Positions 5,960-34,857 of a DNA stretch of 64,000 bases are shown here, piece after piece. The stretch comes from Microbacterium sp. zg-Y818 (GTDB lineage Bacteria; Actinomycetota; Actinomycetes; Actinomycetales; Microbacteriaceae), in assembly GCF_030246905.1 (NCBI RefSeq), contig NZ_CP126741.1:1612001-1676000 (forward strand), given 5' to 3'. Under the pieces are notes generated by a model. That model saw nothing but the letters and a program-made list of their open reading frames with translations. It was not told the origin of the DNA and did no database searches. Made by a program: the position numbers and the translations under genes. Every line of letters starts with the position of its first letter. Position 1 is the stretch's first letter.

Positions 5960-6742
5960 TCACGCGTCCCGCCCGCCCCGCTCCTCGGCGAGCCGCGTCA
6001 GCAGCTCGGCCAGCTCAGGGATTCCGGCGACAGTCACTCTTGCGGCGGTCGGGGCCTCCCCCACACGCACGCCGAGGTCTCCGGGCTGCAGGCTCTGCAG
6101 GGCGTCCTCGTCGGTGACGTCATCGCCGGCGAAGAGCACCGCCGTGGCACCGGTGCGCTCGCGCAGCGCCGCGATCGCGGAATCCTTGCCCTCGTGGCGG
6201 GAGGCGTACTCGACGATGTCCCGCCCCGTCCGGCGACGCCACTCCGGCGCCTGGGCGGCGACGATCTCGTCGACGAGGCGGTTGGCCTCTGCGGCGGTCG
6301 TCGCGTCGGCCCGGCGGGTGTGCACGCCGAGGCCGAACGCCTTCGGCTCGATCCACACGCCGTCGAGGTGTGCCGTGAGCTCCTCCGCACGCCGCTGCAG
6401 GCGGCCGCGCAGCGCGGCGGCGTCGGGCGCGTCGTCCGCGGCGTGCATGCCCGTGCCGGGCTCCCAGTACTCCGCGCCGTGAGAGCCCGACAGCCACAGC
6501 GGCGAGTCGTCGAGGTGCTCGGCGATGAGTCGCAGATCCCGCATGCTGCGGCCGGAGACCAGAGCCACGACGGTGTCGGGCAGCGCGGCCAGCGCCTCCA
6601 CGGCATCCCGCGCCGCCGGCAGCATGCGCGATTCCATCGGATCGTCCTGAAGCGGTGAGAGGGTGCCGTCGAAGTCCAGCGCGACAAGCAGCCGGGGCGT
6701 GGATGCCAGCGCCGCCAGGGCCTCTGCCGCGTCGCCGGTCAC
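5960..6742 (-). CDS. otsB: Trehalose-6-phosphate phosphatase
   Basis: HAD-superfamily enzyme that dephosphorylates trehalose-6-phosphate to trehalose. The 260 residues begin the catalytic fold with ALDFDGTLSP (nucleophile Asp and acid/base Asp), continue with the ALVSGRS motif and end the core with FAGDDVTDEDA, which coordinates Mg. The GTG start overlaps the otsA stop by four bases (GTGA), so the two are translationally coupled and catalyse consecutive steps. Confidence 0.94.
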   Translation of the reverse strand: MTGDAAEALAALASTPRLLVALDFDGTLSPLQDDPMESRMLPAARDAVEALAALPDTVVALVSGRSMRDLRLIAEHLDDSPLWLSGSHGAEYWEPGTGMHAADDAPDAAALRGRLQRRAEELTAHLDGVWIEPKAFGLGVHTRRADATTAAEANRLVDEIVAAQAPEWRRRTGRDIVEYASRHEGKDSAIAALRERTGATAVLFAGDDVTDEDALQSLQPGDLGVRVGEAPTAARVTVAGIPELAELLTRLAEERGGRDA

Positions 6743-12376: not shown

Positions 12377-13270
12377 TCACCGGGTCGGCGCGAGGGCCTT
12401 CCGCACGTGGCCCGCGACGGCGGCGGCGCCGTGCCCCGACAGCACGATCGTGTAGTGGTTCATGCCCTCGATGAGGTGGTGACGCACGTGCGGCATCCGC
12501 TCGAGCAGGGGCTGCAGGTGCGCCGGCGGATACAGCCCGGGCAGCTCGTCGCGCAGCCCGCGCGGCACCGTCAGCAGCACGGTGTCGTGGGAGAGGGCAT
12601 CCAGGGCCGCGGGAAGGGTCGCGCCGGTGTTCATGTCCACGGTGTCGTCGACCGTGGTGCGGTAGCTCGTGGCCGGGCGCAGCAGATCGCCGTCGGGCGA
12701 CAGGTCGTAGACGAAGTACTCCTCCAGCTGGTCCGACCAGGCTCCCTGGAACGCGGGGTGGTCGCGCCAGAAGGCGAGATACGCGGCATGGTCGGCGAAC
12801 CGCTGGTTCAGCCGCTCGGCCGTGGGTCCCAGGATGTGGGAGACGACGGTATCGGCATCGAGCCCTTCCGGCACATCCAGCGGCAGTCCGCCGTCGACGA
12901 GCAGGAGCGAAGCGACGCGCTGCGGATGCCGGTGCGCGAAAGCCAGAGCGACGAAGGCGCCCATCGAGTGACCGACGACGAGCGTGCGCTGCACCCCCGC
13001 GGCATCCAGCACGGCCGCCATGTCGTCGGCGTGGGCCGCGAGGCCGCCCGCACCGGTGACGCCGTTGCTGCGCCCTCTCCCCCGCAGGTCGGGGGCGATC
13101 AGGCGCACGTCGGGCAGACACTCGGCCAGCCATGGCCAGGCGCGGTGAGACGAGGTCACGCCGTGGATGAGCAGCGCGGTCGGGGCGTCGGGCGCGTCCG
13201 TCTCCCACACCCCCACCCGCAGGGCACCACCTTTCACCGGCACGTCGAGGGTGCGGTACTCGCGGCTCAT
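12377..13270 (-). CDS. Alpha/beta-fold hydrolase
   Basis: A 297-residue serine hydrolase. The oxyanion region is LLIHGVTSSHRAW, the nucleophile elbow is VVGHSMGAFVAL, and the likely acid and histidine lie in the later DTVLLTVPRG and IEGMNHYTIVL segments. The ATG at 13270 overlaps the stop of the dehydrogenase gene. Being last in a liv/ligase/dehydrogenase operon, it may release an acid from an ester or a short oligomer such as a hydroxybutyrate ester; the substrate is not evident from sequence. Confidence 0.85.
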   Translation of the reverse strand: MSREYRTLDVPVKGGALRVGVWETDAPDAPTALLIHGVTSSHRAWPWLAECLPDVRLIAPDLRGRGRSNGVTGAGGLAAHADDMAAVLDAAGVQRTLVVGHSMGAFVALAFAHRHPQRVASLLLVDGGLPLDVPEGLDADTVVSHILGPTAERLNQRFADHAAYLAFWRDHPAFQGAWSDQLEEYFVYDLSPDGDLLRPATSYRTTVDDTVDMNTGATLPAALDALSHDTVLLTVPRGLRDELPGLYPPAHLQPLLERMPHVRHHLIEGMNHYTIVLSGHGAAAVAGHVRKALAPTR

Positions 13271-21264: not shown

Positions 21265-21302
21265 GTGCACCCCCTGGGACTCGAACCCAGAACCCACTGA
21301 TT
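21265..21302. repeat. attL, 38-base tRNA-Lys fragment
   Basis: Identical over 38 bases to the 3' part of the tRNA-Lys gene at 30060-30097, covering the T-arm and one side of the acceptor and anticodon stems. Identity stops at 21303, where the anticodon-loop sequence of the real gene is replaced by element DNA. The CCA found at the intact gene is absent here. Confidence 0.9.
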
Positions 21303-21677
21303 TAATTAAGCACACAATCGCCCTAGTTCTGTGTTCCTACGACGTCATCACAGATCGTCCTTCTAGGCCCTGGTTTGCTCGCTTGACCTGCGGTTTTATA
21401 CGTCACTTGACGCGCCAGAAGATGCCGCGAACGTATGTTCAATGCCCTCAGATACCCGCAGATTCTTCGCTCAAAACGCGGAGTAAACGGTGGATTTCGA
21501 CGGGATCGCAGCCGAACGCTAGGCGCGGCGAGTCTTCGAGCATCCGTTCTCCGCCATGCCTTCGAAGTCCTCCGGACGCCCTACATACGTTCGAAGCCCC
21601 GAGGACCGCCGTAGGGCTTCCTGAGGGCTTCGAGACCGGCCTAGCAGTTCGGATACCGGGATGATGACCTAACGCGG
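21303..21677. other. Element end without a recognised gene
   Basis: A 375-base stretch between attL and the first clear element gene. It would be expected to hold integrase arm-type sites. I see no convincing gene: the only moderately long minus-strand frame has a proline-rich, unfamiliar product and no ribosome-binding site. Element transcripts running leftward would end here. Confidence 0.5.
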
Positions 21678-21950
21678 CTAGCGCGCTCCTGTGGCCGATG
21701 GTGGGCGGCTTTGGCGGGCGCGTCGGTGTTCGTGCGACAGCGCAACCCACAGGATGAAATCGCGTTCTTCGGGGTCGAGCAGATCGAATTTCTGGACGTG
21801 CTGCTCGGCTTCCACGGCGAAGAGTTCCCGCTGTATCGGGTCCGCCGCGCGGTGCGCCTCAAATGCGCGACCGACCAGTGCCGCGCCCGAATCGAACCAG
21901 TCCCACGCCCGCGAGAACGAGAACGGAGACACATCGCGAGGATCGGACAT
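21678..21950 (-). CDS. Small element protein of unknown function
   Basis: 90 residues, largely hydrophilic, with an acidic central helix (RELFAVEAEQHVQKFDLLDPEERDF, shown here in part as a description of residues 40-66) and a basic C-terminus rich in Arg and Ser. Last gene of the leftward element operon, 18 bases after the protease-like gene. I do not recognise the family; the length and position match small accessory proteins of phage satellites. Confidence 0.55.
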   Translation of the reverse strand: MSDPRDVSPFSFSRAWDWFDSGAALVGRAFEAHRAADPIQRELFAVEAEQHVQKFDLLDPEERDFILWVALSHEHRRARQSRPPSATGAR

Positions 21951-21968
21951 GATGGGGACCGTTCGCCG

Positions 21969-23045
21969 CTAACGGCCCGTGGGCGGCGCGAAGGTGTCGG
22001 GATCGTGGGAGCCGCCGCGAGCGGCACGCCCGAGCATCGCCGCGACAACCGGGTCCGGCACTGCCGGAGCGGCAGGCGGCGGCGTCGGGATTTGGGCTGT
22101 GTGCGAGCCGTCGCGAGCGGCACGCCCGAGCATCGCCGCGACAACCGGGTCCGGCACTGCCGGAGCGGCAGGCGGCGGCGCGTCGTCGGCAGTGCTCCGC
22201 AGTTCCAGCGGCGGGAGAAGGATCGATGCGCGCATCGCCGCGACGGCTTCCGCGTAGGCCGGTTCCGCCGCGACGGCTTCCGCGTAGGCCGGTTCTCCCC
22301 CAGCTGCTTCCTGTTCGAGTATCGCCGCGAGTTCGCTTTCCTGGCGGCGGAGAGCGCGTTCCTTCGCGGCCTTGTAGTCGATGCCGAATACCGCGCCCAT
22401 GAGGGGCGGTTCCACATCGGGGACGAGTGCACCGGTGCGGTGCCGGTACCAACTGACTTCGGGGGTGACGATCCCTTCAATCACCGCGCCGAAGTACGAG
22501 GGGCGACCCACGACAGCGACCGCGACGCACTCCGCGGCACGGACATGGCGAACGACGTTGCGATCCCAGCCCTCCCAGACGTGATCGTCGAGATAGACGC
22601 GCATTTCGACAGACAGCCCAGCATTACCGTTTGCGAGGTGTTCGCTGTAGAGCCATTCCACAGAGGCGAGGTCATGATTCAGCGCCCAGAGGCAATCGAA
22701 CCCGCCGCCCGTGCCGCCCAGATCGAGACTGTGGGGTTCAAACGAGTTTTCAACCCTCAGCCCCGTTCCCATGACGTGCGGCGGGTTGCCGTCGCGCGTC
22801 CGCGTGGTGTGCTCGGCCAGAAGCGGCGGGGCGAAGCGCGGCTTTCCGAACGCCGCGGGATGCACCCGTTCGTGATGGCTGAGGGAGTATTCGTTCCACG
22901 GCAACGCGCGTCCGACGATTGCGATTTCCCCCATCCGCGCGAGTGCGTTCGCCCCGTTCCGCAACGCTTCGCTGATGTGCCCCGTGCCGTGCGCCGCGAG
23001 CGGAACGGCGCACCGCACGGCGCGGTCGGCAGGCGCGGAAATCAC
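21969..23045 (-). CDS. Prohead protease-like protein
   Basis: 358 residues from the GTG at 23045, which overlaps the preceding stop (GTGA). The N-terminal two thirds read like an actinophage capsid-maturation protease: IAIVGRALPWNEY, HHERVHPAAFGKP, WALNHD (candidate catalytic His), NAGLSVEMRV (candidate catalytic Ser) and ECVAVAVVGRPSYFGAVI, which corresponds to the closing strand of the S78-type fold. The C-terminal third is low complexity: two EPAYAEAVAA units and two 32-residue Ala/Pro units. No capsid or scaffold gene accompanies it. The family assignment is by pattern only and could be wrong; an unrelated peptidase or a structural protein is the alternative. Confidence 0.55.
   Translation of the reverse strand: MISAPADRAVRCAVPLAAHGTGHISEALRNGANALARMGEIAIVGRALPWNEYSLSHHERVHPAAFGKPRFAPPLLAEHTTRTRDGNPPHVMGTGLRVENSFEPHSLDLGGTGGGFDCLWALNHDLASVEWLYSEHLANGNAGLSVEMRVYLDDHVWEGWDRNVVRHVRAAECVAVAVVGRPSYFGAVIEGIVTPEVSWYRHRTGALVPDVEPPLMGAVFGIDYKAAKERALRRQESELAAILEQEAAGGEPAYAEAVAAEPAYAEAVAAMRASILLPPLELRSTADDAPPPAAPAVPDPVVAAMLGRAARDGSHTAQIPTPPPAAPAVPDPVVAAMLGRAARGGSHDPDTFAPPTGR
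22009..22180. repeat. Direct repeat in the protease-like gene
   Basis: Two 76-base copies at 22009-22084 and 22105-22180, offset by 96 bases, differing at one base. Each encodes the segment PPPAAPAVPDPVVAAMLGRA on the minus strand. The near-identity at DNA level shows a recent duplication in frame. Confidence 0.9.
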
Positions 23046-23707
23046 GATTCGTCCCGCAGTTCCAGGGGCGGCACATCGCTGTTCGCGGTCAGCCGTTCCG
23101 CGACTTCCCGGACGACCGCGCCGCGCGGACGACCGGACGCAAGCCGCTCCTGCGCGTGAAGTTCGGCTTGCAGATCGGGAGCGTCTGCAACGCAGGCCAG
23201 GATTTGGATGCTCCCGGCCTTGACGAGCCGCATATCGCGCCAATTCTGGACCGCCCCGCAAACGGGGCATTCGCGAGCATTCTCGCGCCTGTACTCTTCC
23301 GCCCGCGCACGAGTCACGATGACCTGGCGTGCACGATCCCGCCGCGTGATATGCGCCCATGTTTCGTATTCGACGGGTTCTTCGCGCCGTTCGCCTTTCG
23401 GGCCAGGAATGCTGATTTTCAGGGTCGGCGGAACATTCCGCCATTTCGTGATTGAGCCCTCACCCATTTCCGCTACTTCGACGTATACGGCACGAAGGTC
23501 CTCCGGCACCGCGAAAAAGCCTTCATCCTGCCATTCGTCGTCCGGGTACCCCTTCGGCGGGGCGATTCGTTCCGGAATGGACTCCGAGCGGGAGGCATTC
23601 GAAGGAAATGCGGTCCCCCCGCCCGAAGCCGTCCATTCCCGAACGCCGCTTTGGGTGGCATCGCCCGTCGTTGTGAGCGGCGTTTTCTCAGCATTCCTGC
23701 TAGTCAT
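23042..23707 (-). CDS. Element protein with a zinc-ribbon-like motif
   Basis: 221 residues from the ATG at 23707, supported by GAAGGGA nine bases upstream; an ATG nine bases earlier would sit on top of that site. The middle contains CPVCGAVQNWRD followed 19 residues on by a further cysteine (ILAC), a possible incomplete zinc ribbon, after a basic helix (RRDRARQVIVTRARAEEYRR). Immediately upstream of and overlapping the protease-like gene, the position a portal gene holds in phages, but it has no portal similarity. Function unknown. Confidence 0.6.
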   Translation of the reverse strand: MTSRNAEKTPLTTTGDATQSGVREWTASGGGTAFPSNASRSESIPERIAPPKGYPDDEWQDEGFFAVPEDLRAVYVEVAEMGEGSITKWRNVPPTLKISIPGPKGERREEPVEYETWAHITRRDRARQVIVTRARAEEYRRENARECPVCGAVQNWRDMRLVKAGSIQILACVADAPDLQAELHAQERLASGRPRGAVVREVAERLTANSDVPPLELRDES

Positions 23708-23818
23708 TGTGGGCATTCCCTTCGCTTTGGAATGGCCCGAGTGTATGCCCCGCGACAGTAAAACCCAAGGGGCTATTGCGACTCGACTTCTCGTTGCATC
23801 TATCAGAATGATTTGGGA

Positions 23819-24259
23819 TCAATTGGGAGTTGTCGGGGCGCGATCAGAACGCCGACATTCGAGGCAGACGATGACCCTTTGCGTACCGGTCGGACGTTCG
23901 TACTCATAGACGCGAAACGTCCCATCGACGAAGGGATGACCCGCCCGCGAGCACCGACCAATGTCTAGTTGCGACTTCCGCCGCTCCGTCTTGTGAAGCC
24001 GCCGCCGCAGGTTGTGCGCCCGCATACAGGCACGACACCGCGCATAGCCTTCGCGGGTCCGCAGGATTGATGCTTCCCCGACGATTTCGTGACCCGCTGC
24101 ACAATGCCCAGTCGCGAGAAGCGTCGGCCTACCCCTGTCCGCCACGATTACCGATCCGTCTCCCGGACGATACCGCGACCCATGATAATGCGAAAACGCT
24201 GCGAGAGCGCCAGGAATCCGAGAGCGCCGGGAGAAATGCGAATTACTGCTGTTGTACAT
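23819..24259 (-). CDS. Protein with two zinc-binding repeats
   Basis: 146 residues. Two related modules are visible: HCAAGHEIVG...YARCRACMRAH and RCSRAGHPFVDG...VIVCLECRR, each with the pattern Cys-x3-4-Gly-His then Cys-x2-Cys. Such modules are common in small phage-encoded HNH-like or zinc-ribbon proteins. No complete HNH nuclease motif is seen. The start is uncertain because the upstream 50 bases are already AT-rich non-coding-looking DNA. Confidence 0.6.
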   Translation of the reverse strand: MYNSSNSHFSRRSRIPGALAAFSHYHGSRYRPGDGSVIVADRGRPTLLATGHCAAGHEIVGEASILRTREGYARCRACMRAHNLRRRLHKTERRKSQLDIGRCSRAGHPFVDGTFRVYEYERPTGTQRVIVCLECRRSDRAPTTPN

Positions 24260-24495
24260 AAATGCGAATAGCTATCTCCGGAGTTTCCGAATTCGCGCTT
24301 TATTTGCACATTTCCCGACATTTTGTTCCAAAGGTCCGGGTAAATCCGAAAGGGAGCTCTGCACGAGTGGATGCCGCGCCCCCAAAAACTGACATTTCGC
24401 AATTTGCATTTCATGCATTCGTGCACTTGAAATGCAATAGTCGATTGCATTTCGTTTCGTACGCAATTACGCATCGTGCCATTATCTAGATTCCC
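24260..24495. other. AT-rich intergenic patch with iteron-like repeats
   Basis: The most AT-rich stretch of the window. It contains three copies of a TTGCATTTC-like word: TTTGCATTTC at 24403-24412, and the perfect inverted pair GAAATGCAAT (24429-24438) / ATTGCATTTC (24444-24453) with a five-base spacer. ATGCGAA also recurs around 24190-24270. The pattern suits a replication origin or a phage-type regulatory region. A 108-codon minus-strand frame crossing it is not believed to be a gene. Confidence 0.55.
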
Positions 24496-24933
24496 TTAGT
24501 TATTAGCTTTTCCTAGACTGAGACTGAACTCAACTGAACTGAACTGAACTACGCCGGGCGTGACAGGCGGCGTGACGCCGGACGTGACAGGCGGCGTGAC
24601 GCCGGGCGTGACAGGCGGCGTGACAGGCGGCGTGACAGGCGGCGTGACAGGCGGCGTGGCACCTGGCGTGACAGGCGCGTTACAGGTGGGATGAACGGCG
24701 GCGGACGCACGCAGGAGCGCCGAATCCAGCGGCATCATGCAGACCGGGCAGAACCTGCCGAGCGCGGGATCGACTCCCTGACTCCGGTACCAGTCAGCGA
24801 CGCAAGCGACGCAGAGGCCGGTGGGTTTCGTCGCGCGAGAATGCGCGGGACACATACGCCCCGAATCCAGGGCTGCCAGGATCAGCACCCATCGGTACGG
24901 CTGCCCCGGCACGCGGGTAGGCCAGTGGGACAA
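24496..24933 (-). CDS. Cys-rich element protein with Pro-Val-Thr repeats
   Basis: 145 residues from a TTG start preceded by AAAGGGTGA. The N-terminal half has [19 protein letters not shown] and [11 protein letters not shown], a likely zinc-binding region. The second half is a low-complexity tail of [14 protein letters not shown] repeats encoded by 12-base tandem repeats. A short open frame of 26 codons lies directly upstream in the same frame, interrupted by one TGA, so the real protein may once have been longer. Function unknown. Confidence 0.5.
24553..24688. repeat. 12-base tandem repeat array
   Basis: Around ten imperfect copies of GGCGTGACAGGC with variants such as GGCGTGACGCCG. On the minus strand they encode alternating Val-Thr-Pro and Pro. 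Next to it, at 24521-24551, is a separate run of AACTG pentamers that encodes the protein's extreme C-terminus. The repeats have no spacers, so this is not a CRISPR array. Confidence 0.85.
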
Positions 24934-24936
24934 AGT

Positions 24937-25017
24937 TCACCCTTTGCGGGCGATGAAACGCAGGAGGTCGGATTCGCGGGACATTCGCCGCCGCCCGGTC
25001 AGGTGCTTTTCCTTCAT
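24937..25017 (-). CDS. 26-codon mini-gene or 5' part of an interrupted gene
   Basis: Reads MKEKHLTGRRRMSRESDLLR and ends in FIARKG. It has GGAGGA five bases before the ATG, and the ATG overlaps the stop of the winged-helix gene (ATGA), so translation is expected. Its TGA is followed after one codon by the TTG start of the next gene in the same frame. It is either a very small basic protein or the N-terminus of the downstream gene cut off by a nonsense mutation. Confidence 0.45.
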   Translation of the reverse strand: MKEKHLTGRRRMSRESDLLRFIARKG

Positions 25018-25970
25018 CGTGATCCTCCGTCATGGCGCATTGCGGCTTCGTCATAATGGGCGTCGAGCAGTTGCCAATTTTCGTCGTCGTCCTGGCGCGG
25101 ATCGTCGGCGCGTTCCCCTCCCGCAAAGGGCGGTTCGTGGGGAACGTCGTAGGCGAGACGTAGGGCGGCGGCGGCTTGCGCGGCCACGGCATCGGGACTC
25201 CATCCCGGATCGTGCCTACGCTTCATGAATTCGTCTACTGACTCACTAGCGGCGGCGGGAGCGGCGGCGGGAGCGGCGGCGGGAGGTTTGCGGGCGCGGT
25301 GCTTCCGCGCCCGCTGCGCGCCCGCCTTTCTCTGCTTCGCCATTTGCGCGGCGGTGGTTTGCGAAGCGGCCCAGTTGCGAATCTGGTATGAACCGTCGTC
25401 GTTCCGTTCCCACAGATCGGCTGCCACCAGATCGGCCAATATCGATTCGCGCACGGGAGGTTCTACGCCGTCAATTACCAAAGGGAGCGCGCTCGCGGCG
25501 ATGAATCCGTCAGTGCGGTTTGCCATGCCGAACATGAGTCCGCGAACGTGCGCGCCGAAGGTTGTAAGCCCTACCGTCGTAAGCCCTATCGCCGCATTAT
25601 CGATGCCCCAGAACCAGCGGGTCGGGACATCGACGTTGATTCCGCCCTCGTACAGATCCGTGTTCTTCGATGGTGTGGTTTGCGAAACGTACCAATCAAG
25701 AATCTGGTATGACCCGTCGTCGTTCCGTTCCCACCGACCGGCTGCCACCAGATCGGCCAATATCGATTCGCGATCATCGGACGAGGGAGTCGGTATAACC
25801 CTAGGGAGCTGCGGAGCGGGTATCAGCCCTTCCGATACCATCGCCACGCCATACATGAGTCCGCGAACGTGTGCACCGAAGGTTTCCAACGATTCCGTGT
25901 GATCCATGAGCCATTTGACCGGGGCGCTCGCGTGCATCCCCCACGGCTTCCCCGCCTTCGGTGCGTTCAT
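25014..25970 (-). CDS. Protein with tandemly duplicated winged-helix domain, replication-initiator-like
   Basis: 318 residues. Two related domains occupy residues about 31-99 and 138-206, each reading FGAHVRGLM...DG(F/L)I...RESILADLVAA..WERNDDGSYQI..W..SQTT. This matches the pattern of winged-helix domains at the N-terminus of actinophage replication or DNA-binding proteins (a DG-I/V-P helix, an L..LV.AGLW helix, then a G-Y/W strand and Q-T). A basic segment KQRKAGAQRARKHRA follows the second domain, then an Ala/Pro linker and acidic tail. No helicase or primase motif is present. A role as origin-binding protein for the nearby AT-rich patch is inference. Confidence 0.6.
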   Translation of the reverse strand: MNAPKAGKPWGMHASAPVKWLMDHTESLETFGAHVRGLMYGVAMVSEGLIPAPQLPRVIPTPSSDDRESILADLVAAGRWERNDDGSYQILDWYVSQTTPSKNTDLYEGGINVDVPTRWFWGIDNAAIGLTTVGLTTFGAHVRGLMFGMANRTDGFIAASALPLVIDGVEPPVRESILADLVAADLWERNDDGSYQIRNWAASQTTAAQMAKQRKAGAQRARKHRARKPPAAAPAAAPAAASESVDEFMKRRHDPGWSPDAVAAQAAAALRLAYDVPHEPPFAGGERADDPRQDDDENWQLLDAHYDEAAMRHDGGSR

Positions 25971-25979
25971 CGGATGTGC

Positions 25980-26321
25980 TCACTTTTCGTCATCGAGTCC
26001 GAACACTCTGGAAAGCACATCCCCCAGGGTGGGTGCATCGTCGCGGTATTCGTCCGCGTCCGCGACCGTGAAACCGCGGGACGCTGCGACACGTAGGAAT
26101 CTCGCGAAGCCCTCTTCATCGGTGATCGTCCACACCCGCGCCAACCGATCCCAGCGGCGGGAATGCTCCGGAACCGTCTCCCGAAGGATCGCGAGCGCGA
26201 GCGGATGAAACGGGAAGCGCACTTCGCGCGACCGTCTCGCCCCGGCGACGGTGATCGTCACCGTTGCCGGCCGCCCGGAGGTCGATGCGCGGTCCTCGCA
26301 AGTAGGCGTCAGCCAGTTCAC
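25980..26321 (-). CDS. HARP-like DNA-binding domain protein
   Basis: 113 residues from the GTG at 26321, which overlaps the excisionase-like stop (GTGA). The core VRFPFHPLALAILRETVP followed by RRWDRLARVWTI and a last helix resembles the HARP-type module (F.Y.P.....I..ip..rWd...k.W.i) found in SMARCAL1-like helicases and some phage proteins, where it binds branched or single-stranded DNA. No helicase is attached. The resemblance is by eye. Confidence 0.5.
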   Translation of the reverse strand: MNWLTPTCEDRASTSGRPATVTITVAGARRSREVRFPFHPLALAILRETVPEHSRRWDRLARVWTITDEEGFARFLRVAASRGFTVADADEYRDDAPTLGDVLSRVFGLDDEK

Positions 26322-26584
26322 GTCTCGCCGCTCTCCGAAAGGTCGGCGCGCGGCTGATCGGTGGTGCCGACTTCCTGCATTTTCAGCCAGTCGAGCACAT
26401 CGCCCAGCCGGTACCGGATCATGCGCCCATCGCGGATGTAGCGCGGCCCGCGTCTCGCGGTGCGCTCTTTGGCGAGGTAACTCACCGTCCGCTGTCGGAT
26501 ATCCGCAACCTGTTCGGGGCGGAGCAGTGCGGCACGATCCGTCAGGGCAGGAAGGGCGGTCAGCCCGGGCGCGTCCGGGATCAT
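26318..26584 (-). CDS. Excisionase-like helix-turn-helix protein, copy 2
   Basis: 88 residues. LLRPEQVADIRQRTVSYLAKER and GPRYIRDGRMIRYRLGDVLDW form the winged helix of MerR/excisionase-type DNA-binding proteins. It is a paralogue of the gene directly upstream, with a 51-base stretch identical between the two (26363-26413 and 26638-26688). Overlaps both neighbours by four bases. A role in excision or in control of the leftward operon is likely. Confidence 0.75.
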   Translation of the reverse strand: MIPDAPGLTALPALTDRAALLRPEQVADIRQRTVSYLAKERTARRGPRYIRDGRMIRYRLGDVLDWLKMQEVGTTDQPRADLSESGET

Positions 26585-26871
26585 GATGCGTCACCTGTCG
26601 GCTGCGTTTCCCGCGACCCGTCGAGCGGCTGTTCGGCGGTGCCGACTTCCTGCATTTTCAGCCAGTCGAGCACATCGCCCAGCCGGTAGCGGATGGACCG
26701 ACCATCCCGGATGTATCGGGGACCGCGCCCCCCGGAACGCTCATTTGCGAGGAAGTGGATGGAACGCTCACGAAGCATCGCAATCTGCGCGGGGCGGAGC
26801 AACGTGTTCCGGTCGAGCGTTTCCCACGGAATCGCCCGGGCATTCCAATCGTTTCCGTTCGAAGCCGACAT
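26581..26871 (-). CDS. Excisionase-like helix-turn-helix protein, copy 1
   Basis: 96 residues from the ATG at 26871, which has GGAAGGA seven bases upstream. Same domain as its downstream paralogue (LLRPAQIAMLRERSIHFLANER, GPRYIRDGRSIRYRLGDVLDW, described in parts). It is the first gene of the leftward operon and faces the repressor across a 166-base divergent control region, the usual position of an excisionase or a satellite activator. Confidence 0.75.
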   Translation of the reverse strand: MSASNGNDWNARAIPWETLDRNTLLRPAQIAMLRERSIHFLANERSGGRGPRYIRDGRSIRYRLGDVLDWLKMQEVGTAEQPLDGSRETQPTGDAS

Positions 26872-27037
26872 ATCCGAATCCTTCCGAGACGTGTAACCGG
26901 GCGTCCGCTCGGGGCGGGCGGCGCCTTTGCCGGGTACGGTACATCCCCGCATCTACCGTCACAACCCCCCGAGGTTTCTGTGCTCCTGTATCATCATGGC
27001 AGTTGCAGGCACAGCCAAGGGGAGGTACTGTGCTCCT
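26872..27037. promoter_or_regulatory. Divergent excisionase/repressor control region
   Basis: Contains two direct copies of CTGTGCTCCT exactly 50 bases apart (26978-26987 and 27028-27037), the second ending against the repressor ATG. Each is followed by a related sequence (GTATCAT and ATGTCA). Repeated sites in this position are typical operators of an element repressor. No clear -35/-10 pair could be fixed by eye. Confidence 0.5.
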
Positions 27038-27763
27038 ATGTCACCAAAACCGCGGGATTCAGACGCCTGGGCAGATCAGTTCGTGTATGCGATTGGGGCG
27101 CGTATCGCCGCGCTTCGCGAGGGGCGGGGGTTGTCGGGGCGCGAGTTGGCGGATCGGACCGAAGAGTTCGGCCATCGGATTGACCGGGCGATCCTCGCGA
27201 ACCTGGAAAACGGACGGCGCGCGGTTGTGAGCGTTCCGGAAATCTTCGTTCTCGCCGCCGCCCTGGACGTGCCGCCTATGACGCTCCTGCTTCCCAGCGA
27301 CCCCTACGCCGACGTTCAGGTGCTTCCCGACGCAGACCTACCTTTTGCCGAAGCCGCGCGCTGGGTTGTCGGTGAAAGCACACGCCTACCGTTCACCCCG
27401 GCTCACGAGGACCCGCACGCGGAGGACCGTTACCGACTCCACGCGGAGCGGCTGCGGAAGGCGCTCTTGATGGACCGCACGACGAGGGAACTTGTCAACG
27501 TCGCGACGATCCTGCGAGTGGTCACGGGGCGTCCCGACACTGGCGAGGAATCGGCGTTCTGGCGTGATCCAGCGGAGGTGGAGGGCGCTGCTGAAATGTG
27601 GCGCTACCGGCTGGGTGACGAGATACGCAGATGGATCGCCTACTACCGGGAAGAAGCAGACGACGGACGGAGGTATCTCGTGCAGCGATTCGATCCGGAC
27701 GAGTACCGCGACGTGATCGATCCTCACGACCTGCGCGAGATTGACGAGCTGCGCAGCAAGTGA
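27038..27763 (+). CDS. XRE-family element repressor
   Basis: 241 residues from the ATG at 27038, with GGGGAGG about 13 bases upstream. The N-terminal helix-turn-helix covers about residues 13-70 (IGARIAALREGRGLSGRELA, RAILANLENGRR, LAAALDVPPMTLLLP). The remainder is charged, helical and of unknown function, with no peptidase active site, so it is not a LexA/CI-type self-cleaving repressor. It is divergent from the excisionase-like genes and 23 bases ahead of the integrase, so both may be on one rightward transcript. Confidence 0.8.
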   Translation: MSPKPRDSDAWADQFVYAIGARIAALREGRGLSGRELADRTEEFGHRIDRAILANLENGRRAVVSVPEIFVLAAALDVPPMTLLLPSDPYADVQVLPDADLPFAEAARWVVGESTRLPFTPAHEDPHAEDRYRLHAERLRKALLMDRTTRELVNVATILRVVTGRPDTGEESAFWRDPAEVEGAAEMWRYRLGDEIRRWIAYYREEADDGRRYLVQRFDPDEYRDVIDPHDLREIDELRSK

Positions 27764-27786
27764 CGCAGAAAGAAGAGGGATAGGAG

Positions 27787-28977
27787 ATGGCTAGGAGCGC
27801 GACCCCGCTCGGACAGTGGGGGAAGATCAACGTTACGAAGGTGGGACCGGGTAAGTTCCGGGCGCGTTCGCGGATGCGCGACGCAAGCGGGAAGTCCCGC
27901 CAGGTTGAGGCATCCGGTCCGACGCGGGCATCCGCGGAAGCGGCCTTGAAAGAGAAGCTTCACGCGGGATCGCTGGCCGTTGTCGCCGGGGCGATTAGTC
28001 CGACGACGACGATTGAAAAGTTGGCAGAGGCGTATCTGGAAGAGGCGGCGCGGATCGGCAGTCTCGCGCCGACGAGCTTGGAGCGTTACCGGTGGGTGAT
28101 TGCCGCGCACATCATCCCGGGGATCGGTCAGCTGCGCGTTCGTGAGGCGACCGCGGGGACGATGGACCGGTTCCTTGCGGGGATGTATTCACAGAGCCTT
28201 GCCAACGGCAAACTGTGCCGCGCGGTGCTTTCCAACATGCTCGGAATCGCGGTTCGTCATGGTGCGTTGCCGGGGAACCCGATCCGCGACGTGGCGCGCG
28301 CCCCGAAGCCGCGAATTGTCATGGACGTCGATCCTGCCGAGGAAAGCGCGCTCAGCGTCGATGCGGTGGCGAAACTGCGCGCCGACTTGCAGACGTGGCT
28401 TCACGAGCCGCACCAGATGGGACCGCGCCGTAGTGCCGACCTGCCGGACGTGGTGGATTTCATGCTTGGCACGGGATGCCGTATCGGGGAAGCCCTCGCG
28501 ATCCGGTGGGATGACCTGGACTTGCGCGCCGACCGTCCTACCGCCGCTATCAGCGGGACCGTTGTTCAGGTGACCGGCGAGGGTCTGAAACGGCAGGCGG
28601 CGCGTAAGGGCGGCAAGGGGCGGCTTGTAGTGACCCTCCCCCGGTTCACCGTCGATATGCTCCTGCGTCGTCGGGTCGAGAGCACCGCGAGTCCGTACGT
28701 GTTTCCCAGCGAGACAGGAGGGCTGCGTTCCCCGAACAACTGGCGGCGCACCTGGCGCGGGTTCAAGGCCGATATGGGGTACTCCGACGACCTCAGCCCG
28801 CACGACTTCCGCAAGACGGTCGCGACGATCCTGGACCGCGAGCATGGCGCGAGCGATTCCGCGAAGGTTCTCGGACACAGTTCCCCCGTCATGACGGAGA
28901 AGCACTACATCCAGCAAAACGCGGTCGCGCCGGACGTTTCCGAGACCCTGCAACGGTTCGCTGACGCGTCGAGGTGA
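27787..28977 (+). CDS. Tyrosine site-specific integrase
   Basis: 396 residues. An N-terminal arm-binding domain (residues about 15-60) is followed by a SAM-like core-binding domain (about 75-170) and the catalytic domain. The active-site set is complete: R232 in GTGCRIGEAL, H339-x-x-R342 in SPHDFRKT, H364 in LGHSS and the nucleophile Y374 in EKHYIQ. It should catalyse integration at the tRNA-Lys 3' end; the gene lies about 1.1 kb from attR. Start has GGGATAGGAG directly upstream. Confidence 0.95.
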   Translation: MARSATPLGQWGKINVTKVGPGKFRARSRMRDASGKSRQVEASGPTRASAEAALKEKLHAGSLAVVAGAISPTTTIEKLAEAYLEEAARIGSLAPTSLERYRWVIAAHIIPGIGQLRVREATAGTMDRFLAGMYSQSLANGKLCRAVLSNMLGIAVRHGALPGNPIRDVARAPKPRIVMDVDPAEESALSVDAVAKLRADLQTWLHEPHQMGPRRSADLPDVVDFMLGTGCRIGEALAIRWDDLDLRADRPTAAISGTVVQVTGEGLKRQAARKGGKGRLVVTLPRFTVDMLLRRRVESTASPYVFPSETGGLRSPNNWRRTWRGFKADMGYSDDLSPHDFRKTVATILDREHGASDSAKVLGHSSPVMTEKHYIQQNAVAPDVSETLQRFADASR

Positions 28978-29034
28978 CGAGCGAACGAGCTCTTCCCCAC
29001 ACACCCCGCCATGAGCCTGGGTCCGCGCGCGCCT

Positions 29035-29871
29035 TCAGGCGGGCGGCGCCCCGTCAGAAAGCAGGGCAGTGACCGTGCCGCCGCTTCCTGGTTGGCGGGA
29101 GAAGGAGACTCCGTATCTGTGCATCATCCATTCAGCGGCGACAGCCTTGACGAACTCGATCGCATCGAACCACTGCATCGCAGGCGGCGTCGTGTACCCC
29201 TTCCTCCTCTTGAGCCGCTTGTAATACTCCTCCGATCCGTGCCGCCGGTTGTCGCCAAGTCTCGGATCATTGGCGGAGTTTTCGAAACTCTCCCACCGGT
29301 CAGCAAACGACGGACCGAGGCTTTCCAGCCATTCCAGGAATTCCCCTTTGCCGTCGAAATGACCTATCAGCAGATCCCACACCCGCCAGAGATCGATCCA
29401 TACCCAGTCGTGATCGATGTGCTGGAGGAGTGCAAGGATTCGCCTCACCCACGGCTCTCTTTCAGCGAGCCGAAGCAGCGCATCCGCGGATGCTGGATCA
29501 AGGCCATTCGTCGACACTGAGTAGGCGTAAATGCCTCCGACACGTAGGGCGGGCACGTCAGTGGCCCCGTCATACACGTGAGTCAGTTGAGCCGGGGTCG
29601 CATGGCTATCAGACCTGAGCAGCGCCGCGATCCCGTTCATCTCCTGCAAGAGCGGCTCCGCGGTGTCGCGAACAGCAAAGGCCTCTCGCCGATCATCAGC
29701 CGCATCCAGCGCCGTCGCCGACAAGTACCATCCTTTTTCATCGAACCCAACGAGCGGATCCGCATCGAAGAGGATGCTGAGCGCTCGAAACTCGGTGATC
29801 TCAGATGCGTCGGTCCCCGACGCGGCGTACTGCCGAACCGTGCTACTAGTGAGCCGCGCCTTCACCCGCAT
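29035..29871 (-). CDS. Cargo protein of unknown function
   Basis: 278 residues, transcribed toward the integrase from the attR side. The N-terminal half has a domain with YLSATALDAADD and a cluster around IAALLRSDSHA. The C-terminal half reads HIDHDWVWIDLWRVWDLLIG and later SANDPRLGDNRRHGS, then AMQWFDAIEFVKAVAAEWM. That order (aromatic WxxLYRxxE-like helix, then an AN...GD..RHG motif, then a terminal helix) recalls a family of uncharacterised bacterial proteins. Location between integrase and attR is where satellites and prophages carry defence or fitness genes, but no function can be assigned. Confidence 0.6.
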   Translation of the reverse strand: MRVKARLTSSTVRQYAASGTDASEITEFRALSILFDADPLVGFDEKGWYLSATALDAADDRREAFAVRDTAEPLLQEMNGIAALLRSDSHATPAQLTHVYDGATDVPALRVGGIYAYSVSTNGLDPASADALLRLAEREPWVRRILALLQHIDHDWVWIDLWRVWDLLIGHFDGKGEFLEWLESLGPSFADRWESFENSANDPRLGDNRRHGSEEYYKRLKRRKGYTTPPAMQWFDAIEFVKAVAAEWMMHRYGVSFSRQPGSGGTVTALLSDGAPPA

Positions 29872-30013
29872 GCCTAGAACCTAGTGCCTATCGGCGCGGG
29901 GCGATGAGGCGAATGAGCGCGAAGCCGACCAAGACCGAGGTGGGCCAACGCGCCATAGTGATGGGTCAAAACGCGGTGAAAACGCGGGATTGACTGCGGT
30001 TCCCACCGAAAGC

Positions 30014-30056
30014 AAAACCCCGCCGCACCAGGGAATCCCTGATGCGGCGGGGTTTT
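30014..30056. terminator. Element-borne terminator after tRNA-Lys
   Basis: A 21-base stem with one mismatch (AAAACCCCGCCGCACCAGGGA against TCCCTGATGCGGCGGGGTTTT), A-run on one side and T-run on the other, so it can stop transcription from both strands. It lies immediately 3' of the reconstituted tRNA-Lys and replaces the original terminator now left at 21230. Confidence 0.85.
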
Positions 30057-30057
30057 T

Positions 30058-30133
30058 TGGTGCACCCCCTGGGACTCGAACCCAGAACCCACTGATTAAG
30101 AGTCAGTTGCTCTGCCGATTGAGCTAGAGGTGC
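30058..30133 (-). tRNA. tRNA-Lys (anticodon CUU)
   Basis: A full cloverleaf: acceptor GCACCTC/GGGGTGC with one G-U pair, D-arm GCTC/GAGC, anticodon stem ACTGA/TCAGT with loop CTCTTAA (anticodon CTT), T-arm CTGGG/CCCAG with TTCGAGT. The discriminator is A and CCA is encoded. The encoded CCA is contributed by the element side, since the attL copy lacks it. Confidence 0.97.
30060..30097. repeat. attR, within the intact tRNA-Lys gene
   Basis: Same 38 bases as attL, here continuous with the rest of the tRNA gene. Integration therefore left a functional tRNA at this end. Confidence 0.9.
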
Positions 30134-34486: not shown

Positions 34487-34857
34487 TGGTGGAGATGGGG
34501 GGAATCGAACCCCCGTCCATCGCTGGGATACTGCGTCTTCTCCGGGCGCAGTCTGTAGAGACGTTCTGCTCGGCTCCGACCTTTGTCACAGACACCTAAG
34601 TCGACGAGCCCAGTCTGGGAAAAGTCCCGCGTGACGTCCAGACGCCGTCACACAGCAAGATCCCTAAATGACGCCAGGGTCCGTGTCGGGATCACACACG
34701 GTCTGACGGACTATCGGGCTCGCTTACGCAGCGAGGGCGAAGTCAGTGCGCTTGGTTTCGGCACTTATTGGTTTTGCAGAGATCGTTAACGAGATAACCC
34801 TGCATCCTCGGCCCGCTTCTCGCAGAGACTCAGGCGATGTCGAAACCGATCATCCCC
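34487..34857 (-). ncRNA. ssrA: tmRNA
   Basis: 371 bases. The acceptor stem pairs GGGGATG at the 5' end (34857) with CATCTCC before an encoded ACCA at the 3' end, and the 3' portion carries the TTCGATTC T-loop. The 5' part has the GATCGGTTTCGACATC block typical of tmRNA. The resume codon GCA at 34777 opens a tag frame encoding AKPISAETKRTDFALAA, ending at TAA 34724-34726; the ALAA end is the proteolysis signal. smpB, its protein partner, is encoded just upstream at 35676. Confidence 0.96.

Follow-up and report, generated by a model that had tools for sequence, protein, structure and literature searches.

The question raised by this locus is whether an ~8.8-kb island inserted in a tRNA-Lys gene of Microbacterium sp. 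zg-Y818 is a phage satellite, the remnant of a prophage or an element of another kind. The island lies in a stretch of 64,000 nucleotides (positions 1,612,001 to 1,676,000 of contig NZ_CP126741.1), hereafter the window, to which the coordinates given below refer, and it is bounded by a 38-bp exact direct repeat (21265-21302 and 30060-30097). A preliminary description had taken it for a satellite resembling phage-inducible chromosomal islands (PICIs), or for a highly reduced prophage, without virion genes. The reading as a mobile PICI-like island is well supported by the att repeats in a tRNA gene, the integrase, the repressor/excisionase switch, the replication initiator and the empty sites found in 2 of 20 genomes of the genus. 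The words "without virion genes" were wrong, because a divergent homologue of the S78 prohead protease is encoded at 21969-23045. The label that fits best is a PICI-like or satellite-like island with a head-protease module.

The protease homologue (358 amino acids, GTG start, minus strand) overlaps through the sequence GTGA with the gene of a 224-amino-acid Zn-ribbon protein (23042-23716, minus strand; phrog_1895, E 1.6e-5), its partner in the analysis that follows. It ends in a repeat-rich C-terminal tail of ~100 amino acids, which its relatives lack. In a search of 5.8 billion proteins, from which the best 8000 candidates were scored, the protease retrieved itself and two metagenome relatives, P0002 (53%) and P0003 (51%), at 75% query coverage. 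When three members of this family were scanned against Pfam and PHROGs, two matched Peptidase_S78 (best 0.13) and two matched phrog_80, head maturation protease (best 0.026), and no other family was listed; the member found in genome G466 (see below) matches S78 at 0.13. A reference hidden Markov model (HMM) was prepared from 20 S78 domains of the genus (from 18 of 198 genomes) plus HK97 gp4. With this model P0003 scored 23.3 bits and P0002 20.5 bits, values attained by none of 5000 shuffles in either case, and the island protease scored 7.6 bits, attained by one of 5000. The best score among 1069 decoy open reading frames (8.6) was given by the frame of the island protease itself, and the next one was 5.6. 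The island protease alone is weak in this test, so the case for homology is carried by its relatives. Comparison of the four members with the S78 references by hhalign gave a probability of 93% and a score of 51.8 over 137 columns, versus 13.7 for the reversed control and 21.7 for the best of 200 column shuffles. Homology to the Peptidase_S78 domain is therefore seen in profile-profile comparison, with single sequences below the Pfam cut-off.

In the hhalign alignment, inspected by eye, the active-site His and Ser are in register in 4/4 family members and 21/21 reference domains, not all of which are independent. A different result was obtained for the acidic residue found after the Ser in (or before) the last strand, which we take to be the third catalytic residue of the S78 protease: it is D or E in 21/21 references and Ala in 4/4 family members. 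Three residues are highly conserved in S78-type proteases (PMC7411985). Compared with the HK97-type Peptidase_S78, the island-type proteins thus have a colinear domain with His and Ser in place, but differ from it in this Ala, in a Glu located two residues past the Ser in 4/4 members and, for the island copy, in the C-terminal tail. These comparisons make membership of the island protease in the S78 fold family well supported; its catalytic chemistry is not supported. An open reading frame of 482 amino acids on the opposite strand (21711-23159) was favoured by a base-composition score and was rejected as the true gene, since the conserved relatives lie in the minus-strand frame.

Recurrence of the protease was analysed in overlapping samples of genus, family and order genomes. 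The three-protease profile matched two of 295 genus genomes, its own and G466 (E 5.2e-34); a search with the single protease in 299 family genomes and one with the four-member profile in 296 order genomes each matched only its own genome. Before the G466 homologue (L061, 9785-10540), and overlapping it through the sequence ATGA, lies a gene for a 181-amino-acid homologue of the Zn-ribbon protein (31% over 102 amino acids; Smith-Waterman score 121 versus at most 64 in 3000 shuffles). The island that carries this second pair extends from a tRNA-Ser gene (L061, ~6260-6347) to a 23-bp sequence that repeats the end of the tRNA with one mismatch (~12815-12837). It contains two copies of a transposase gene (one was scanned and is IS481-type), a 78-amino-acid integrase remnant, the pair, a DUF4276 protein and an AAA_21 ATPase, and no head gene besides the protease was recognised among the seven proteins scanned. 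The genes for the DUF4276 protein and the ATPase (L061, 10648-12413) form a defence-like pair beside the Zn-ribbon/protease pair. To judge from these sequences, the Zn-ribbon protein and the protease form a unit that is present in two distinct islands, in neither of which a capsid gene was recognised. Of the syntenic islands looked for elsewhere, this pair is what recurs; the whole island and the context of its initiator were not found. A protein-database search with the 224-amino-acid protein retrieved only itself, and the pair matched no PADLOC family. The hexapeptide PPLELR, common to the 224-amino-acid protein and the protease, was not accepted as evidence of a targeting peptide: a common 6-mer was also present in 135 of 20000 shuffles, and other pairs of island proteins have one as well, so that PPLELR is only suggestive.

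The other virion functions were searched for in the island and beyond it. Those island proteins that were scanned with Pfam and PHROGs gave no match to any capsid, portal or terminase family, and in this respect the preliminary description stands. Packaging or terminase-redirecting families (TerS, Rpp and the like) were not found among the scanned proteins, several of which have no assigned family, nor did any of them match a conjugation family. In the whole host genome the capsid family PF05065 gave no match; this was the capsid family searched for at genome scale. Similarly, phrog_2 was the terminase family searched for genome-wide, and its sole match was discarded as a PhoH-like protein. 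The protease and the initiator had no tblastn match in 50,697 phage records; in tblastn searches of phages neither did the 224-amino-acid protein, P0002 or the 278-amino-acid protein described below, and P0003 gave one chance match (E 3). P0003 had no match in plasmids. Viral contigs were scanned with the protease and its alignments as well as with the integrase and the initiator, and genome contigs with the protease alignments; these scans, all of which depend on exact short peptides, gave no match.

The integration site is clearly delimited. The left repeat, attL (21265-21302), is an exact copy of the 3' part of tRNA-Lys, and the right one, attR (30060-30097), lies within an intact tRNA-Lys(CTT) gene (30058-30133, minus strand), the integration target, which bears out the tRNA duplication described earlier. 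The island has a G+C content of 0.635, versus 0.706 and 0.704 in the flanks, and was matched at full length once in the single-contig 3.23-Mb host genome. Allowing up to two mismatches, the 38-mer was found in 101 of 247 genus genomes, and 11 of the 247, own included, have two copies (counted by eye). Twenty genus genomes with a single copy were used to compare neighbourhoods. The gene at the right of the tRNA-Lys adjoins it in 20/20. The left-hand gene, for a substrate-binding protein, starts 0.22 kb from attL at the island locus and 0.15-0.17 kb from the single repeat in two genomes (G468 and G453), where the right-hand gene is adjacent too; these two are empty sites. In five of the 20 this left-hand gene lies 0.8 to 3.6 kb away, and in 13 it was unmatched within the compared stretch, one of these stretches ending at a contig end.

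Genes for integration and for its control are located at the right of the island. The tyrosine integrase (27787-28977, plus strand, 396 amino acids) matches phrog_1 (2.7e-48) and PF00589 (2e-16), and the motifs R, HxxR, H and Y can be read in it by eye, in agreement with the complete catalytic set noted previously. Matches to it occur in 38 of 59 genus genomes, own included, the others being 23-42% identical. Divergent from two leftward helix-turn-helix genes, as previously stated, is the gene of an XRE-family repressor (27038-27763, plus strand; PF13560 6.8e-8, phrog_3 1.4e-6), the start of which was chosen by eye from an upstream GGAGG. The leftward genes encode excisionase-like proteins A (26581-26871, or from an alternative start at 26952; phrog_2528, E 0.0016) and B (26318-26584; phrog_2528, E 6.9e-4; HTH_17 at E 0.011, below the cut-off), both on the minus strand, and are tandem paralogues with DNA 78% identical over 183 nucleotides. 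A 10-bp direct repeat, CTGTGCTCCT, sits in this divergent switch (26978-26987 and 27028-27037) and its two copies are operator candidates. Hence, the integrase with att sites, the own regulator and the excision functions expected of a PICI are all present, as read from the sequence.

A replication module of the PICI type is represented by a predicted initiator and a candidate origin. The initiator (25014-25970, minus strand, 318 amino acids) matches phrog_2447, replication initiation protein, in two stretches (E 1.2e-19), and its winged-helix region is internally duplicated (a 98-nucleotide segment, 90% identical). The island has tandem duplications in three places, namely the protease tail (22005-22311), the initiator (25354-25772) and the excisionase pair (26344-26801). 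The initiator matched four of 299 family genomes, its own and three with partial relatives, and in the 3.3-kb stretches around these three no other island gene was found by tblastn; a protein-database search gave nothing at E 0.001 among the best 8000 candidates scored. Near the initiator, an AT-rich intergenic region with repeats (24146-24495; G+C 0.40-0.52 over 24200-24549) may be the origin of replication. All three exact GAAATGCAA motifs of the window fall within 50 bp of each other at 24404-24453; with up to one mismatch, four are observed in the window versus 3.3 expected, which is the chance level. Between this region and the initiator, and adjoining the latter, is the gene of a Cys-rich protein of 145 amino acids (24496-24933, minus strand, TTG start), whose C-terminal PVTP repeat is encoded by a 12-bp tandem array of 10.9 copies (24557-24686). 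These copies were considered as possible iterons. At two mismatches the unit occurs 19 times in the window versus 19.5 expected, so that only its tandem order exceeds chance. Iterons were rejected as an established fact, because the array lies inside a coding repeat and the motif totals are at chance level. Taken together, these genes indicate that the island can probably integrate, excise and copy itself.

The explanation that we favour, with about even confidence, is that of a satellite-like, site-specific integrative island whose protease homologue acts on the procapsid of a helper phage. The activity of this phage would lift the repressor, and the island would excise and replicate from the origin candidate. 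The protease homologue would enter the procapsid of the helper, on which the island would depend, and would either cleave there or occupy the maturation site; the second option is considered because the conserved acidic residue is lost. Head assembly would thereby be redirected or poisoned to the advantage of the island, which would be packaged by the terminase of the helper; no packaging signal was identified on the island. A bolder form of this proposal holds that the island is a previously undescribed type of capsid-less phage parasite, in which the Zn-ribbon protein and the altered prohead protease capture, resize or poison helper heads, and that this module moves between unrelated tRNA-integrated islands. 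We consider this form doubtful.

Several observations weigh against the favoured explanation. Alone, neither the C-terminal 309 residues of the island protease nor the whole protein match Pfam or PHROGs; the PF04586 profile gives nothing in the own genome even at E 10, island protease included; no library match of the protease members attains the Pfam cut-off; and in the S78 HMM scoring one of the 5000 shuffles beat the island protease. Two AlphaFold2 models of the protease gave no usable fold, with predicted local distance difference test (pLDDT) values of 35 and 31. The acidic residue is Ala in 4/4 members, so proteolysis is uncertain. The island has no recognised terminase small subunit, packaging redirector or cos/pac site, the host genome lacks a PF05065 match and no helper is known, and the motif counts of the origin candidate are, in total, at chance level. 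Finally, the whole island is known once, the second one (G466) is broken by insertion sequences, and a prophage reduced by loss of its capsid would look similar.

This last alternative, a decaying or reduced prophage, or a capsid-forming PICI (cf-PICI), in which the protease happened to survive the loss of capsid, portal and terminase, is possible, although we lean against it. Usually a capsid gene follows the head-protease gene, as in HK97; in the island the protease gene is the next to last before attL. The absence of a PF05065 match from the host genome and the internal duplications of the initiator, the excisionase pair and the protease tail would also suit a decaying element. However, the listed island genes are open, several of them overlapping by stop and start, and the att repeats are identical. 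P0002 and P0003 likewise retain open frames of 256-257 amino acids at 53-56% identity. Moreover, the same pair, without recognised head genes, is present in a second island at another tRNA. This speaks against a mere accident of loss, with the reservation that there are just two cases and that one of them is damaged. It is unlikely, on the other hand, that the island is a self-contained integrative element which phages do not package, with a protease-like protein that serves something other than the capsid, for instance as an anti-phage device or in regulated proteolysis. The lack of a recognised packaging gene among the proteins scanned, the altered active site of the protease and the defence-like neighbourhood of the G466 pair (AAA_21 ATPase and DUF4276 protein) would all fit such an element; yet the island proteins gave no match to a conjugation family, both integrase and initiator match phage families, and no PADLOC family corresponds to the pair. 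It is very improbable that the pair belongs to an unrelated family and only resembles S78 by chance. For this reading, single sequences give either no match or one that stays under the curated cut-offs, and AlphaFold2 gave no fold; against it, the profile-profile alignment, which spans 137 columns and has His and Ser in register, scores more than twice as high as any of 200 shuffles, and two libraries give the same function.

The favoured explanation, a satellite whose protease homologue acts on helper heads, was compared with known systems. The nearest functional analogy is Ccm of SaPIbov5; this homologue of the capsid protein makes the helper build small capsids and is unable to take the place of the helper capsid protein (PMC5052747). 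By working analogy, in both cases a satellite homologue of a head-morphogenesis protein of the helper would redirect head assembly; unlike Ccm, the island product is a protease homologue, and its action on heads is a proposal. Head manipulation of the scaffold type is described for TcaP of the satellite PLE (PMC10945586). The cf-PICIs encode capsid, head maturation protease, portal, connectors, both terminases and an HNH protein (PMC10690885). The island shares with them a head-protease homologue and an HNH-like protein, the HNH match being weak; in contrast to them, it has no capsid, portal, connector or terminase gene recognised with Pfam and PHROGs, where a capsid too divergent for profiles is possible. 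With only those two likenesses it was not placed among the cf-PICIs. The candidate PICIs of Mycobacterium, phiRv1 and phiRv2 included, are defined by an integrase and a major capsid protein (PMC10654092). Like the island, they are actinobacterial, some have tyrosine integrases in tRNA genes, attB sites used by prophages and replication genes, and cargo adjoins the integration functions (a toxin there, a candidate here); they differ in the capsid gene, of which none was recognised on the island. In Vibrio, capsid E, a protease and a small terminase occur together on the satellite-plasmid TG93, for which its authors propose disruption of head assembly (PMC13230959); a head maturation protease in a reduced satellite is thus common to both. 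Among the papers listed on satellites and prohead or maturation proteases, judged by title and opening of the abstract in a collection that mostly excludes subscription literature, none was recognised that deals with a capsid-less satellite with a head protease. If the proposal is correct, helper phages would be attacked by a head protease that stands alone and has an altered active site, and so at a point other than those reached through a scaffold (PLE TcaP) or a capsid homologue (SaPIbov5 Ccm). Islands of this type would escape any search in which a capsid or an already known packaging gene is obligatory, so the satellites of the genus may be undercounted. The Zn-ribbon/protease pair is small enough for direct testing.

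Other elements occupy the same tRNA-Lys. Besides the own genome, ten genomes have two copies of the 38-mer; the stretches of seven were compared and four were scanned for families. In G316 (L021-L023) the occupant is a tailed-phage prophage of 44 kb, which has terminase and head-protease genes as well as major head and tail genes (28 open reading frames scanned). The elements of G389 (L019) and G490 (L020) measure 16-17 kb from att to att and have a ClpP-type protease gene (769-860 amino acids); that of G389 gave a weak terminase-like match, below Pfam cut-offs (10 open reading frames scanned). Each of these two compact elements is regarded as either a small prophage or a capsid-forming satellite of the genus. 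In G469 the site holds an element of 39.5 kb, on which FtsK-like and helicase genes are present (19 open reading frames scanned). Using tblastn at E 0.01, the stretches of these four genomes and of G307, G325 and G396 had only a distant integrase in common with the island. The pair was not found in a full prophage, that of G316 included; the latter, with its distant integrase, is integrated in the same tRNA-Lys, and the site is common to prophage and island.

The remaining genes of the island complete the leftward array of small genes mentioned in the preliminary description. A protein of 90 amino acids without assigned family is encoded by the last gene before attL (21678-21950, minus strand). 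A Zn-ribbon protein of ~108 amino acids (23819-24145, minus strand; a start at 24259 is also possible) matches phrog_1492 (E 1.7e-5) and is weakly like the profiles of phage HNH endonucleases. Between the initiator and the excisionase-like genes, a protein of ~113 amino acids (25980-26321, minus strand), with a GTG start that overlaps the stop of the preceding gene, matched no Pfam family at E 0.1 and PHROGs at chance level only. The cargo candidate is a 278-amino-acid protein without assigned family, encoded between the integrase and the att site (29035-29871, minus strand); it had no Pfam, PHROG or PADLOC match and one weak NCBIfam match (E 0.19), and among the 299 family genomes it was found in its own and, weakly (E 6.9e-4), in another one. 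Outside the island, the window also contains a transfer-messenger RNA gene (34487-34857, minus strand) with the tag AETKRTDFALAA.

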